Of a stretch of DNA of 64,000 nt, positions 4,123-62,105 are shown one piece after another. This DNA comes from an uncultured Granulosicoccaceae bacterium. Lineage in GTDB: Bacteria; Pseudomonadota; Gammaproteobacteria; Granulosicoccales; Granulosicoccaceae. Both the position numbers and the translations under genes were made by a program. The notes under the pieces were generated by a model that was not told the origin of the DNA, did not search any database, and was given only the letters and a program-made list of their open reading frames with translations. Position 1 is the stretch's first letter; every line of letters starts with the position of its first letter. The stretch is taken from NCBI GenBank assembly GCA_938035525.1, contig CALHOI010000035.1, positions 1-64,000 on the forward strand, in the 5' to 3' direction.

Positions 4123-4161
4123 TTGCCTCTCCTTTATATTTGGGCTATTATTCCCAAATAT
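4123..4161 (+). promoter_or_regulatory. sigma70-like promoter with overlapping 9-bp inverted repeat (copy A)
   Basis: TTGCCT (4123-4128), 17-bp spacer, TATTAT (4146-4151). Perfect inverted repeat ATATTTGGG (4136-4144) / CCCAAATAT (4153-4161). 34 of 39 positions match copy B at 60393-60431. Confidence 0.75.
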
Positions 4162-4178
4162 ACCAAAAGGAGAGAACA

Positions 4179-5735
4179 ATGAAATTCACCGCCACCGCAG
4201 CCGCCTGTTGCTTGCTCGCCCTGGCCGCTTGCAGCGAAAATAACCCAGAATCAAACAACACTGGCCCAGTGGACGACCCGATCAACCATCAGGTGACCGC
4301 GGGGATTTCACTCGACCCAGCTCAAAGACCCGAGCTTGAGGCGTTACCCGACGTTACTTACGACCCAAACCTCAGCACCAATACCGATGTTGTTTCGAGT
4401 GTTTCGGACAGTGCAGATGATGGTGCTACTGGCGGCGACACGGGTGGCGACACGGGTGGCGACACTGGGGGAACAGCAACCAGTGGGTCGGCGACCGATG
4501 GCAGTGGGACTGGCGGTACAACCGGCGAATCCTCTGTAGCCGATGGCGACATGGTGGGCACATCAGTGCCGCCGGGCGATACATCCGGTGGAACATCTGA
4601 TGAACAATTCAGAGCCGGCACCTTAACTGCCGCCGACTATGACGACCAATTAAACCCACATTTATATCAGCGCTACGCATCGGACTTTTTGCAAAACAAC
4701 GGTGGCGTGCTTGATGTGCCCTACCTGGATTTAGCCAACCGTATTCCTATAACTGTGACCAGCGCAGACGGAGACAGCTACGGTGGCGCTAAGTTGGTGT
4801 TGTCGAATGCCGGCATCACGTTTTTGTCTTTGATAACTCCGCCCTCAGGTAAAACCTACCTGTATCGCGATATCGATGCTTTACCATCAGAATTTACGGT
4901 TCAGGCAACCGGTGTTTACGGTGCTGAAGTGGTGGCAACCATTAACCTTGATCAAGCGATGTCTGCTGCTGGTATCAACATCGTGATGCCGGCCTACCCG
5001 GACACTGCTGACCAAGAACAAGCAATACCCCAACCGCTGGATATCATGTTTGTTATAGATACCACGGGCAGCATGGGTGATGAGCTTGCCTATTTGCAAA
5101 CCGAACTCAGCGCCACCATCGAATCACTTCCCTACGATGCAGGTTCACTTAACCTTGGTTTAACGTTTTACCGAGACATAGGCGATGAATACGTGGTTCG
5201 TGCACATGGCTTTACCAACGATGTGAATACCATGCAGCAAACCTTAAGAGCCGAAAGCTATGATGGCGGTGGCGACTACCCGGAAGCCATGGATCAGGCG
5301 CTGCATCAAGCTGTTGATGCAAACTGGCGAGAAGACAGCACGCGCATATTGTTTCTGGTTGCCGACGCACCACCACACGATAACAAGATGCGCGACACAT
5401 GGAACGCGGCAAGCCAGGCGCGCAGCAAGAACATTCATATTGTGCCTATTGCAGCCAGCGGAGTTGGTGAACACGCCGAATACTTAATGCGCAGCATGGC
5501 CGCGTTAACCAACAGCCGATACGCGTTTTTAACCGACGATTCTGGATTTGGTAATCCGCACGCCGAACCAACGGTAGATTGTTATGTGGTCACCCATTTA
5601 AACAACTTGATGGAACGCATCATGAACAGCATCATCACCGGCACACGTCATGAACCCAGTGATAACGAGATTATTCGACGAGTTGGCGATTATCAGGGCG
5701 GTGTGTGTAAGCCTGAAATGCAATCACAGCAATAG
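4179..5735 (+). CDS. VWA-domain lipoprotein
   Basis: Start M31 of the ORF, MKFTATAAACCLLALAACSEN (lipobox LAAC), SD AAGGAGAG. VWA/MIDAS DIMFVIDTTGSMGDE. GDTG-rich linker. Confidence 0.85.
   Translation: MKFTATAAACCLLALAACSENNPESNNTGPVDDPINHQVTAGISLDPAQRPELEALPDVTYDPNLSTNTDVVSSVSDSADDGATGGDTGGDTGGDTGGTATSGSATDGSGTGGTTGESSVADGDMVGTSVPPGDTSGGTSDEQFRAGTLTAADYDDQLNPHLYQRYASDFLQNNGGVLDVPYLDLANRIPITVTSADGDSYGGAKLVLSNAGITFLSLITPPSGKTYLYRDIDALPSEFTVQATGVYGAEVVATINLDQAMSAAGINIVMPAYPDTADQEQAIPQPLDIMFVIDTTGSMGDELAYLQTELSATIESLPYDAGSLNLGLTFYRDIGDEYVVRAHGFTNDVNTMQQTLRAESYDGGGDYPEAMDQALHQAVDANWREDSTRILFLVADAPPHDNKMRDTWNAASQARSKNIHIVPIAASGVGEHAEYLMRSMAALTNSRYAFLTDDSGFGNPHAEPTVDCYVVTHLNNLMERIMNSIITGTRHEPSDNEIIRRVGDYQGGVCKPEMQSQQ
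4434..4469 (+). repeat. 12-bp tandem repeat (ggcgacacgggt x3) encoding GDTG
   Basis: Three consecutive 12-bp units, the last with small changes, inside the VWA lipoprotein linker. Confidence 0.85.
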
Positions 5736-57389: not shown

Positions 57390-57731
57390 CGCTTGCTAAC
57401 ACTGACCTGTAGTTGGCGATTCTGACTAAAAAAACGCCAGCTTCCAAGTAAAAAGAGCGAGCTGGTAATAATACCGACAGCAACTGGCTCTCGTTCTCGT
57501 TAGCAAAATAGCCATTCGGCTGGGGCTTGACTGGGCCCTGCCACAGACCGCCATGTTACGCGAAGTGCACTCTAACAGGGCTTACTGTACCTCTACCGTG
57601 TGATATACAGCATATTTGCCTGCCTTGGGTTTTCCAGAATTGACGATAGTTTGCCAATCGGGCTGCGTTCCATAGGGCTGAGATCGCGGAATGTTACACT
57701 TCCCTCAGAATCTGAACAGAGTGCCCGTTTT

Positions 57732-58349
57732 GTGAATCGGTACAAACGCTATTTACCCATCGTCGCCTTCGTTCTTGTGTCTCTGGGCGTTGGTTTGGAA
57801 AAATTCGGTATAGATCTCGAGGCTTTGTCTCGTGGGGACTTTGACCGAGTTTTTAGTGGTGAGTCTAACAACCGGTCAAACAGTGGCGGTAATGCGGCTC
57901 TGTCAAAAAATGACCACTCCGGTTCAAAACAGGCTCATCCGAGCACCCCTAAATGGTCATCAACCAACCCTGAAATTAACCTTTGGCATATATTTGAAGG
58001 TGAAATTAACAGCAGGGACAAGCCAACCGGGTATCACTCCAGGCCCGGCGGCAAAGACCCAGCCAATGCCAGGGTGGTATCGCTAAGGGACAAACCAAAT
58101 GCATTGGGTGTCTATACAGCCAGCATCGAAGTGCGAGACGGTAACAACTGGAAGCAAAAAACGTCTTCATTTTTTCCTGACAACCTGTCCCGACAGGAAG
58201 TCATCGACATTATCGTGCATGCGTTCAAGAACCAGCAAAGCAATGACGGTGGTAAATGGCGGGGGCCATCGGGGCTTGGATTCACCGTTGAAGGCTGGAC
58301 CACCAGACAAGGCGGTATCAACACGGCATACCCTATTTATCAACGCTAG
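57732..58349 (+). CDS. membrane-anchored EndoU-like nuclease
   Basis: ORF 57600..58349. GTG at 57732 gives VNRYKRYLPIVAFVLVSLGV (N-in TM). C-terminal LWHIFEGEI...TGYHSRPGG...NALGVYTASIEV...KQKTSSFFPDNLSRQEVIDII...FTVEGW...NTAYPIY matches the bacterial EndoU pattern (two His plus Lys). Start uncertain. Confidence 0.7.
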   Translation: MNRYKRYLPIVAFVLVSLGVGLEKFGIDLEALSRGDFDRVFSGESNNRSNSGGNAALSKNDHSGSKQAHPSTPKWSSTNPEINLWHIFEGEINSRDKPTGYHSRPGGKDPANARVVSLRDKPNALGVYTASIEVRDGNNWKQKTSSFFPDNLSRQEVIDIIVHAFKNQQSNDGGKWRGPSGLGFTVEGWTTRQGGINTAYPIYQR

Positions 58350-58434
58350 CCCAGCAACCGTCATTTAATTGACATACAAGCTCCCTGGAAACGCGCTGCT
58401 TAGGCATGGATGTCGCTTTGTTTGAGTAATCGAC

Positions 58435-60276
58435 TTGACTCATATCGAAGCGGCGAACTCGGTGCTCAACCCTTTTTCAGTCTCATTGTATTTGGCCAAT
58501 CTGCGCGCACACCTTAATGCGTCCGGCTTGCGCCTTCGCCTCGTGCTGGTGTGCGGGGTGTTGCTTACCCAACCTATTGCATCCCACGCGCAGGAAATAC
58601 AAGAAGAAACTGATAGCGGCGCTCAAACAACAGACCAAACAAGCCAGACCAAGGCAGACGCCAGGTTGCGACAACTGGCCTACATACAGGGCGTGCTTGA
58701 CGGCAAGCTGACCGAGCGCAGAAATATCGGTAACCAGATAGCCGAAGCGAACGAACAAGACAGAGCTGATTTGAGGCGCATGGCAAACTCGCTAACCGCT
58801 GAGATCACTCAACTTCGCAGCACGCTGGAAACCATTGCTACCGGCGGCGTTGATCGAAAGCTATTTGAAGTTGAACCAGAAGCGGAAAAAAAAGACTGGC
58901 GAGAAGATGTATCACTTATTGCTCAACCTGTACTGGATAGTTTGAAGGAAATTACCGAGAAACCGCGACGAATAAAAGAGCTCAATGAACTCATAGAATT
59001 AAAGACACTTGAGGCTCAAACCAGCGAAGCTGCGCTGCAAAGTCTTTCCGGCAACCAATCTACCGATGAAAATTCTGCGCTTTCTCGATCTATTGAATCA
59101 CTGACCAGCAAATGGACCAAACGACGTGAGGACGCGCAAAACGCTATTACAGTTGCGCAAATTCAGTTAAAGGGATTAGAAGGCGATCAACCGATATCCA
59201 AAACCATTTATGAAGCTCTGATCAGCTTTGCAAAAGGTCGCGGGCTGACAATTGTATTGGCGATACTGGCCGCATGGCTTGTGTGGATTAGCGTGCGAGT
59301 TTTACTCAACGCCTATAGGCGCACGCTGGTAGACAAAAAACGGGCCGATAGCCGCACCCGATATAGGGTTGCCAAATACAGCGTACAGGCATTGACGTTT
59401 TCATTGATTTTAATTGCTGTATTTATTGTATTTTACGAACGTCACGATGTGCTGTTATTGGGTTTACTGATCTTGCTTATCGTTGGTTTTGTCCTTAACG
59501 CTAAGCAGTTGCTGCCACGCTATTTAAAAGAGGCAAGGCTGTTACTCAATCTTGGCGCCATGCGCGAGGGTGAAAGAGTCATATTAAACGGCATTCCATT
59601 TCGCGTTAATTCAATCAATATGTACACTACGTTCACGAATCCTGAACTCAGTGGCATGCTACGAATACCCCTGGCGGAGCTCACCAAAACAACATCTCGT
59701 CCCAGTGTTGAGGAAAGTTGGTTTCCAAGTTCTAAAGGCGATGTTGTGCTTACTGCCGAGGGCGAGCTACTGGAAGTACTCAGTCAGAACCCCGATACGG
59801 TAGAGCTGAGAAAAAGAGGCGGAGAATTACTAACACTGCCTACTACGCAATTTTACGGGAAGTCGATGACCAACCTGACACGCCTTGGTACCTTTGGCGT
59901 TAGCAGTACATTTGGTGTTGACTACAACCATCAACACATTGCAGCCACAGTGATTCCCGATACGCTACAAAAACAGGTTCAAGCCGCTTTCGAATCCAGC
60001 AACCTTTCAAATGCTTTGGTCGAGGTCAGAGTGGAACTGGCCGAGGCTGGAAGCTCGTCCATTAACTATTGGATTTTCGTGACAATGAAAAGCGACGTTG
60101 CATTTTCATACTTCAGGGTGCTTCGGGTTATACAAAGTGCTTGTATTCATACCTGCACGACACAAGGCTGGAGCATTCCCTTTCCGCACATGTCTCTGGT
60201 GCAAAAGCCGGTTGCTGCCAACGACGCAGTGACAATGATGGACCAGGCCCCACACGATGGGGCTGCATCTGCTTAG
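58435..60276 (+). CDS. MscS-like mechanosensitive channel family protein with N-terminal coiled coil
   Basis: Signal peptide, long periplasmic coiled coil, TM helices around KGRGLTIVLAILAAWLVWISVRVLL, MscS beta-domain-like LNLGAMREGERVILNGIPFRVNSINMYTTFTNPE. Start uncertain. Confidence 0.7.
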   Translation: MTHIEAANSVLNPFSVSLYLANLRAHLNASGLRLRLVLVCGVLLTQPIASHAQEIQEETDSGAQTTDQTSQTKADARLRQLAYIQGVLDGKLTERRNIGNQIAEANEQDRADLRRMANSLTAEITQLRSTLETIATGGVDRKLFEVEPEAEKKDWREDVSLIAQPVLDSLKEITEKPRRIKELNELIELKTLEAQTSEAALQSLSGNQSTDENSALSRSIESLTSKWTKRREDAQNAITVAQIQLKGLEGDQPISKTIYEALISFAKGRGLTIVLAILAAWLVWISVRVLLNAYRRTLVDKKRADSRTRYRVAKYSVQALTFSLILIAVFIVFYERHDVLLLGLLILLIVGFVLNAKQLLPRYLKEARLLLNLGAMREGERVILNGIPFRVNSINMYTTFTNPELSGMLRIPLAELTKTTSRPSVEESWFPSSKGDVVLTAEGELLEVLSQNPDTVELRKRGGELLTLPTTQFYGKSMTNLTRLGTFGVSSTFGVDYNHQHIAATVIPDTLQKQVQAAFESSNLSNALVEVRVELAEAGSSSINYWIFVTMKSDVAFSYFRVLRVIQSACIHTCTTQGWSIPFPHMSLVQKPVAANDAVTMMDQAPHDGAASA

Positions 60277-60392: not shown

Positions 60393-60431
60393 TTGCACCT
60401 CATTTATATTTGGGTTATTATTCCCAAACAT
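60393..60431 (+). promoter_or_regulatory. sigma70-like promoter with overlapping 9-bp inverted repeat (copy B)
   Basis: TTGCAC (60393-60398), 17-bp spacer, TATTAT (60416-60421). ATATTTGGG (60406-60414) / CCCAAACAT (60423-60431). Confidence 0.75.
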
Positions 60432-60464
60432 GAACCAACCTCGCATTCAACGTCAGGAGACAAT

Positions 60465-62105
60465 ATGAAACTCGCAACCAAACTCAGCACGCTACTCGTG
60501 CTCGCTGGTGCTCTTTTCCACATGGCACCGGCCAGCGCCTGCGGTGGATTGTTTTGTCAAAATATCCCAGTGGACCAAGCCGGTGAGCAAATTCTTTTCC
60601 ATCAGGACGGCGACTCAATCACGGCCATGGTCCGCATACTTTACGAAGGCAATGCTGAAGATTTCAGCTGGGTCGTACCGGTACCGAATACACCCGAGCT
60701 CAGCACCGGAGCAGACACCTTTTTTGATGAGCTTGATGTGATGACTCGACCCGTCTTCGCCTTGCAAAGGACAGGAAACGGAGAGTGCCGTTCAGACTTT
60801 GGCACCACTGGCGGTACTGATGGAGGCGTTAACTTAGGAGTCGCTGAATCAGACTCTGACGGCGGCGTTAACATCGAGCAGGAACTCTCTGTTGGGCCGT
60901 TCGAGATTCAGGTTGTCAGCAGTGATAACCCAGACGACATGGCTAACTGGTTAACCGAAAACGATTACGACTTGTCTGATCGTGGTCGCGATCTTATAGC
61001 GCCTTATGTTGAAATGGGGATGAAATTTGTCGCACTGAAACTTCGCAGTGGCCAATCAACCGGCAGCATACAACCACTGGTTATGAAGTATCAAAGCAGC
61101 AAGCCTATGGTGCCTATCAAACTCACAGCGGTAGCAGCTCAAGACGATATGGGCGTTCTGGTTTGGCTGGTGTCCGATGCGCGCGGTGTGCCCGATAACT
61201 ATTTGCATGTCATACCAAATTACACTCAACTCAATTGGTACACAGGGACGAACAACGCTTACGGTAGTTATCAGACACTGATAACAGATGCTATGGACGA
61301 AGCTGGAGGCCAGGGATTTGCAACCGATTTTGCCGGTATCATTGATGAATCGATCACTGGCTTTATAACCAATGCCGATTCATTAGATGCTGAGCTGGCT
61401 ATGCTTGACGGATTACAAAGCGATGCAGAATTTCTGGCTTCTTTGTATTCAGGCAATCGTAGCGACGCACTAAGAGCCCTGTACTCATCTTATCTTCCAT
61501 TGCCCAGCGGCCAGGATGAGAATGTTTATTTTAATTCGATGGCGTTACAAGCTGTGTTCACGACAGAGGAACTTGCGCAAGCACGAGTTGATCTACGCCA
61601 GGCATTCATTGATGTTGAAATTGAACCGCTCAGAGTCAGCAATTCACTACTCAATGACGGACGTTATTTAACCCGACTCTATACAACTTTATCGGCAGAT
61701 GAAATGACTCTGGATCCTAGTTTTGAATTTAACCCTGATATGGAAACACAAGCACGAGTAAGAGAGGCAACGCTTGACGTCAATTGCGTTAACGACGAAA
61801 CGCTTTGGTCGCTAACGCTTGGCCCCGGTACAGGTCGCGATGGTGAAACTGTTATTCAGGCAAGGGAGTCAACACCCCAATCTATTCCTGAAGCGGCACT
61901 AACACAACGATCCGTTTTTTCAGCAGCGGTTACATCGGGTGATGCTATGCCAGATGTGAAGATAGCTAACAGCTTTGATCTGCTCAACGTCGGCATTGCT
62001 GGTGAAGAACCCAAAGACAGAAAGTTTCTGGGCGCTGTATCTTATTGGTTAGGATGCGTAGTTCTACTGTGCATATTCGTGCGACGTAGACAAACCCAAT
62101 TGTAA
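60465..62105 (+). CDS. DUF2330-like secreted protein with C-terminal TM anchor
   Basis: Start MKLATKLSTLL with SD CAGGAGA. Signal peptide, ACGGLFCQN...AGEQILFHQDGDSITAMVRILYEGNAEDFSWVVPVPNTPEL, C-terminal TM plus RRRQTQL. Confidence 0.82.
   Translation: MKLATKLSTLLVLAGALFHMAPASACGGLFCQNIPVDQAGEQILFHQDGDSITAMVRILYEGNAEDFSWVVPVPNTPELSTGADTFFDELDVMTRPVFALQRTGNGECRSDFGTTGGTDGGVNLGVAESDSDGGVNIEQELSVGPFEIQVVSSDNPDDMANWLTENDYDLSDRGRDLIAPYVEMGMKFVALKLRSGQSTGSIQPLVMKYQSSKPMVPIKLTAVAAQDDMGVLVWLVSDARGVPDNYLHVIPNYTQLNWYTGTNNAYGSYQTLITDAMDEAGGQGFATDFAGIIDESITGFITNADSLDAELAMLDGLQSDAEFLASLYSGNRSDALRALYSSYLPLPSGQDENVYFNSMALQAVFTTEELAQARVDLRQAFIDVEIEPLRVSNSLLNDGRYLTRLYTTLSADEMTLDPSFEFNPDMETQARVREATLDVNCVNDETLWSLTLGPGTGRDGETVIQARESTPQSIPEAALTQRSVFSAAVTSGDAMPDVKIANSFDLLNVGIAGEEPKDRKFLGAVSYWLGCVVLLCIFVRRRQTQL

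Follow-up and report, generated by a model that had tools for sequence, protein, structure and literature searches.

Comparative analysis of two 39-bp promoter modules in the window, by which we mean the whole stretch of 64,000 nucleotides analysed here, points to an operator that would be the binding site of a helix-turn-helix (HTH) transcription factor of the DUF6502 family (Pfam PF20112). This factor is predicted to regulate its own gene together with a few genes encoding surface proteins, and we give this reading a probability of roughly 0.8. The results computed here are the conservation of the module among relatives, the autoregulatory position of the operator, its co-occurrence with DUF6502, the covariation of the operator with the recognition helix and the presence of a predicted HTH in the protein.

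Roughly one in four of the gammaproteobacterial genomes sampled encodes a DUF6502 protein, yet the family has so far been without a function; the libraries that we searched assign it neither a function nor an operator or regulon, and none of the papers in them mentions it. The family would now gain a testable function, that of a sequence-specific, self-regulating transcription factor, along with a candidate operator and regulon.

Two predicted promoter modules in the window

The modules starting at 4123 (copy A) and 60393 (copy B) are both on the + strand, are identical at 34 of 39 positions and are each followed, after approximately 20-35 bp, by a gene whose product is exported (Table 1). In 300 shuffles of the two 200-bp upstream regions no ungapped 39-mer match better than 25/39 arose, and the adjacent 39-bp flanks of the two copies match at only 6-7 of 39 positions. 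The coordinates of the modules reported in the first-pass annotation, as well as the unrelated nature of their flanks, were reproduced. Both copies also have the -35-like hexamer, the 17-bp spacer and the TATTAT that had been described, the -35 of copy B being weak (3/6 matches to TTGACA), and a consensus promoter scan passes copy A only. The inverted repeat, said to have 9-bp arms in both copies, is perfect in copy A but pairs at 8/9 arm positions in copy B. Downstream of each module there is an AGGAG and then an ATG. Each module is read as a predicted sigma-70-type promoter whose -10 lies within an operator.

Table 1. Predicted features of the two modules and of the genes behind them (window coordinates)
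Feature	Position	Strand	Basis
-35 element TTGCCT, copy A	4123..4128	+	17 bp from TATTAT; TTG there in 19/23 orthologous promoters
Operator copy A, ATATTTGGG-N8-CCCAAATAT, perfect 9-bp arms	4136..4161	.	Sequence; conserved in orthologs
-10 element TATTAT within operator core, copy A	4146..4151	+	Promoter scan
Ribosome-binding site AGGAG, copy A	4168..4172	+	Sequence
VWA-domain lipoprotein gene, 518 aa, predicted target	4179..5735	+	Orthologs found
-35-like element TTGCAC, copy B, weak	60393..60398	+	Sequence; below scan threshold
Operator copy B, ATATTTGGG-N8-CCCAAACAT, 8/9 arm pairs	60406..60431	.	Sequence
-10 element TATTAT within operator core, copy B	60416..60421	+	Sequence
Ribosome-binding site AGGAG, copy B	60455..60459	+	Sequence
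DUF2330 gene, 546 aa, predicted target	60465..62105	+	Orthologs found

Both the window and the whole of its own genome (G000; 3.6 Mb, 87.8% complete) contain the pattern TTTGGG-N8-CCCAAA exactly two times, on each count as copies A and B, and a backwards control pattern gave no match in either. The relaxed pattern TGGGNWWWWWNTCCCA adds only two sites in this genome. The four relaxed sites precede the VWA gene, the DUF2330 gene, a DUF6502 gene (contig C38) and a gene for a secreted protein (contig C109). Every one of them is thus upstream of a gene, and the genome scan that had been proposed as a refuting test, for a motif common outside promoters, did not refute the earlier proposal.

For the DUF2330 protein a signal peptide and a C-terminal anchor were predicted by eye, and a literature search on DUF2330 returned nothing. 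The region upstream of its gene (57600-60276) contains a gene with a bacterial EndoU nuclease domain and another encoding a 613-aa protein without a Pfam match.

Conservation in the bacterial family

Orthologs of the VWA and DUF2330 genes were drawn from 48 genomes of the same family, most of the genomes compared in this work being drafts. GGG-N8-CCC was found just upstream of all seven close VWA orthologs and of 16 of the 26 DUF2330 orthologs, the exact site being absent from the other 10. When the 23 promoters were aligned on GGG, the T before GGG, the T before CCC and the A after CCC were each present in 100%, the core between GGG and CCC was almost purely A/T, and in 19 of the 23 a TTG started 18 or 19 nt upstream. 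Outside these shared elements sequence conservation is weak, a pattern typical of a promoter with an embedded operator. This comparison supports the earlier proposal that a dedicated operator would serve at least the VWA lipoprotein and the DUF2330 protein.

The orthologs of both genes are also found on one contig, on the same strand and about 44 kb apart, in one relative (G010:C41:25150-70759), and the linkage seen in the window is therefore not unique to its genome. The match to the VWA copy of G010 reads through one TAA.

Sites that match the relaxed pattern WTGGGNWWWWWNTCCCAW occur in 43 of the 48 genomes, about 1-4 in each, against about 0.1 for the backwards control. The genes behind these sites fall into two classes, namely DUF6502 (PF20112) and exported proteins, mostly lipoproteins; the latter include VWA, DUF2330, beta-propeller and serpin proteins and lipoproteins without a Pfam match. 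Among 44 site-gene pairs, 17 involve DUF6502 and 24 of the remaining 27 encode proteins that look exported when judged by a simple criterion of lipobox and hydrophobicity, with each site counted in both directions. Predicted targets in relatives are DUF5666, beta-propeller, serpin and other lipoprotein genes.

One relative that is 97% complete (G019) and both g6 genomes have neither DUF6502 nor the site, and the operator is also absent from the DUF2330 promoter of G019. Two other genomes, G058 and G067, have sites while a canonical DUF6502 was not detected in them; these are drafts, 93% and 87% complete. A DUF6502 remnant was looked for beside three G058 sites and was not found.

Some arrangements of the operator deserve mention. 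On one contig of G058 (G058:C351; L319:1503) it precedes a GGIAGTGSGD lipoprotein gene like the one usually located behind DUF6502, with no DUF6502 gene or remnant in between. In genera g4 and g5 the genes for DUF6502 and a beta-propeller lipoprotein are divergent, and the region between them contains two operators separated by 61-64 bp (L057, L061, L063-L066, L086-L101). A conserved inverted repeat like TTTCGGCAAGTCAAGCCGA lies between these paired operators and may be the site of a second regulator. The piece GCCGAAAC also precedes the own-genome operator in L084.

DUF6502 as the candidate regulator

The first-pass annotation held that no regulator could be assigned. This is correct for the window alone, but the relatives point to DUF6502, whose gene in this organism is on another contig (G000:C38, 39,969-40,784) and has the same operator some 85 bp ahead of its start. 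Its product matches PF20112 with an E value of 1.5e-70 and 237.6 bits (curated Pfam cut-off 27).

The operator was present in the own promoter of all 38 canonical DUF6502 orthologs of the bacterial family. Among the 30 best DUF6502 homologs drawn from the whole class it was present in about 19, a count that omits two further matches with GC-rich cores, and in a second draw all four strong matches had it. About a third of the class-level DUF6502 genes, and most of the divergent ones outside the canonical clade, are without a recognisable site. The promoter of DUF6502 in many distant genomes consists of TTGAC, a TATATT-like -10 about 17 nt further on and CCCAAT running into the ATG, and several class-level operators touch the start codon (TTGACA-17-TATATT-CCCAAAT-ATG). 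The spacing of the half-sites is strict: of the values of x from 2 to 21 in TGGG-Nx-CCCA upstream of DUF6502 genes, x=8 accounts for 58 occurrences and no other value for more than two. Both window copies conform to the general operator, (A/T)TGGG-N8-CCCA(A/T), whose AT-rich core overlaps the -10.

Across 370 genomes of the class the symmetric site was found in 50 of 101 genomes with DUF6502 versus 7 of 269 without it (odds ratio 37, p=6e-26), the genomes being related and the counts therefore not independent, with positives that span many families. The backwards control pattern showed no association with the presence of DUF6502.

In many Gammaproteobacteria a DUF5666 lipoprotein gene, for which our literature search found four passing mentions, is located directly behind DUF6502, and there is often another DUF5666 gene close by that has an operator of its own (L321-L331, L333). 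It looks as if DUF6502 and DUF5666 could form an older core to which VWA and DUF2330 were added in this family. The regulon suggests where the role of these partners, the DUF5666, DUF2330, VWA and beta-propeller lipoproteins, might be sought.

Covariation of the operator and the recognition helix

Four DUF6502 proteins from three genomes have an HTH that reads TG(I/L/V)HRHEV, versus TGxxRKEV in the others. The promoters of all four corresponding genes contain TTGGT-N8-ACCAA, which was found in none of 116 other DUF6502 genes; the four proteins are related and may reflect one single event. DUF6502 paralogs of the bacterial family that have a different helix often have ACGGG-N8-CCCGT instead. 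This joint change of the recognition helix and of the innermost operator base is the strongest sign that the protein binding this DNA may be DUF6502 itself, and as a natural change of specificity (RKEV with GGG, RHEV with GGT) it makes the recognition code directly testable.

In the HRHEV subclade there is also an apparent second, degenerate operator copy nearer to the start (L176, L177, L186, L193). A family-wide scan with TTGGTG-N6-CACCAA gave few sites, many of them with GC-rich cores, and revealed little about a second regulon.

Predicted structure of DUF6502

AlphaFold models were examined for the DUF6502 protein of this genome (pLDDT 82) and for a distant member (pLDDT 87). Both contain a confident HTH (residues 55-62 and 66-74 of the own-genome protein) and a second, winged-helix-like part. 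When the models were compared with the PDB using Foldseek, the top match was HetR, the regulator of heterocyst differentiation in cyanobacteria (PDB 4J00, 4IZZ, 3QOD, 4YRV). The own-genome model matched 4J00 at E 3.9e-3, and the distant member matched 4J00 at E 3.7e-4 and 4IZZ at E 4.7e-4, with 3QOD third. These fold matches have probabilities of 0.97-1.00 at a global TM-score of just 0.3-0.4.

Sequence methods gave no such link. The alignment of the DUF6502 profile to a HetR profile with hhalign had a probability below 1%, the HetR profile being shallow, as it was built from close HetR proteins only, all from cyanobacterial loci. HMMER detected no homology in either direction, and the score of HetR against the DUF6502 profile was within the range of shuffled sequences; the HetR query itself had been checked against the PDB (E 3.9e-186). 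The DUF6502 profile found no meaningful relative among the sequences of solved structures, and a search for HetR on plasmids found none.

Proposed mechanism and alternatives

In this organism the role of regulator would fall to the DUF6502 gene of contig C38. We infer that its product binds the operator directly as a dimer, the two recognition helices being placed on the GGG half-sites, 11 bp or one helical turn from centre to centre. Such a dimer, lying on one face of the DNA, would cover the -10 and block RNA polymerase until a signal releases it. From the position of the operator over the -10 element, repression and negative feedback are predicted, and DUF6502 is probably an autorepressor, judging from promoter architecture. 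The regulon in this genome is expected to be small: besides DUF6502 it would comprise the VWA lipoprotein, the DUF2330 protein and another protein that is secreted.

It is unlikely that DUF6502 binds the operator as an activator, in the way of HetR at heterocyst genes, for instance through a change in promoter shape. The weak -35 of several targets (TTGCAC, 3/6) would suit an activator, as would the positive autoregulation of HetR (PMC4649674), the best fold match. However, the operator covers the -10, the spacers have a normal length of 17-18 bp, unlike those of MerR-type promoters, and good TTGACA boxes are found in many of the own promoters of DUF6502.

Less probable still is that the operator belongs to another, unlinked regulator, DUF6502 being merely one highly conserved target. 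In its favour, binding by DUF6502 is a prediction, some genomes have sites while a canonical DUF6502 was not detected in them, and in G011 a gene of the TetR family is found upstream of DUF2330. On the other hand, operator and recognition helix covary in DUF6502, whose paralogs have different operators, the presence of DUF6502 predicts that of sites across the class, and DUF6502 is itself a predicted HTH protein. The TetR gene is beside the operator in that one genome only; TetR was rejected as the regulator since it is not conserved and, in other genomes, the operator is followed by DUF6502 as the regulator-like gene.

Very improbable, finally, is that the two copies in the window are a chance similarity, which the shuffles exclude, a mobile repeat or gene duplication, rejected on the unrelated flanks and on a genome scan with no further copies beyond the two relaxed sites, or an element acting as RNA, for instance a terminator or riboswitch. 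A transcript of the palindrome could fold into a hairpin, but the predicted start at its end would leave it outside the RNA, and the core is kept as DNA half-sites at a fixed distance from the -35.

Comparison with known regulators

The predicted autorepression by DUF6502 resembles the logic of classical autorepressors of the TetR/LexA type, with a palindromic operator over the -10 and a small regulon that includes its own promoter; the protein family is unrelated, and repression by DUF6502 is a prediction. A MerR-type promoter was rejected, as its spacer has 19-20 bp and its operator lies between the -35 and -10, in contrast to the 17-18 bp spacers found here (17 bp in the window) and the operator over the -10.

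HetR requires a GGG-N5-CCC palindrome and controls its own gene (PMC4649674, PMC4192349). DUF6502 would share with it both the palindrome of GGG/CCC half-sites and the control of its own gene, and visual comparison pairs Lys73 of HetR, which contacts GGG, with Lys67 of DUF6502, a nearly invariant residue. The two differ in that the site of DUF6502 is GGG-N8-CCC, with no enrichment at x=5, and in that there is no significant sequence or profile similarity between the proteins. Inhibition by the RGSGR peptide through a hood domain is a further trait of the HetR family. As homology is confirmed neither by profile-profile nor by HMM comparison, we state a resemblance between the predicted models and HetR and not membership. 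Tentatively, and at a little short of even odds, DUF6502 may be a HetR-superfamily transcription factor outside cyanobacteria, both belonging to one older family that reads GGG/CCC palindromes with varied half-site spacing and that, in Proteobacteria, controls its own gene and cell-surface proteins. If this link is true, the master regulator of the heterocyst would be one branch of an older and wider family.
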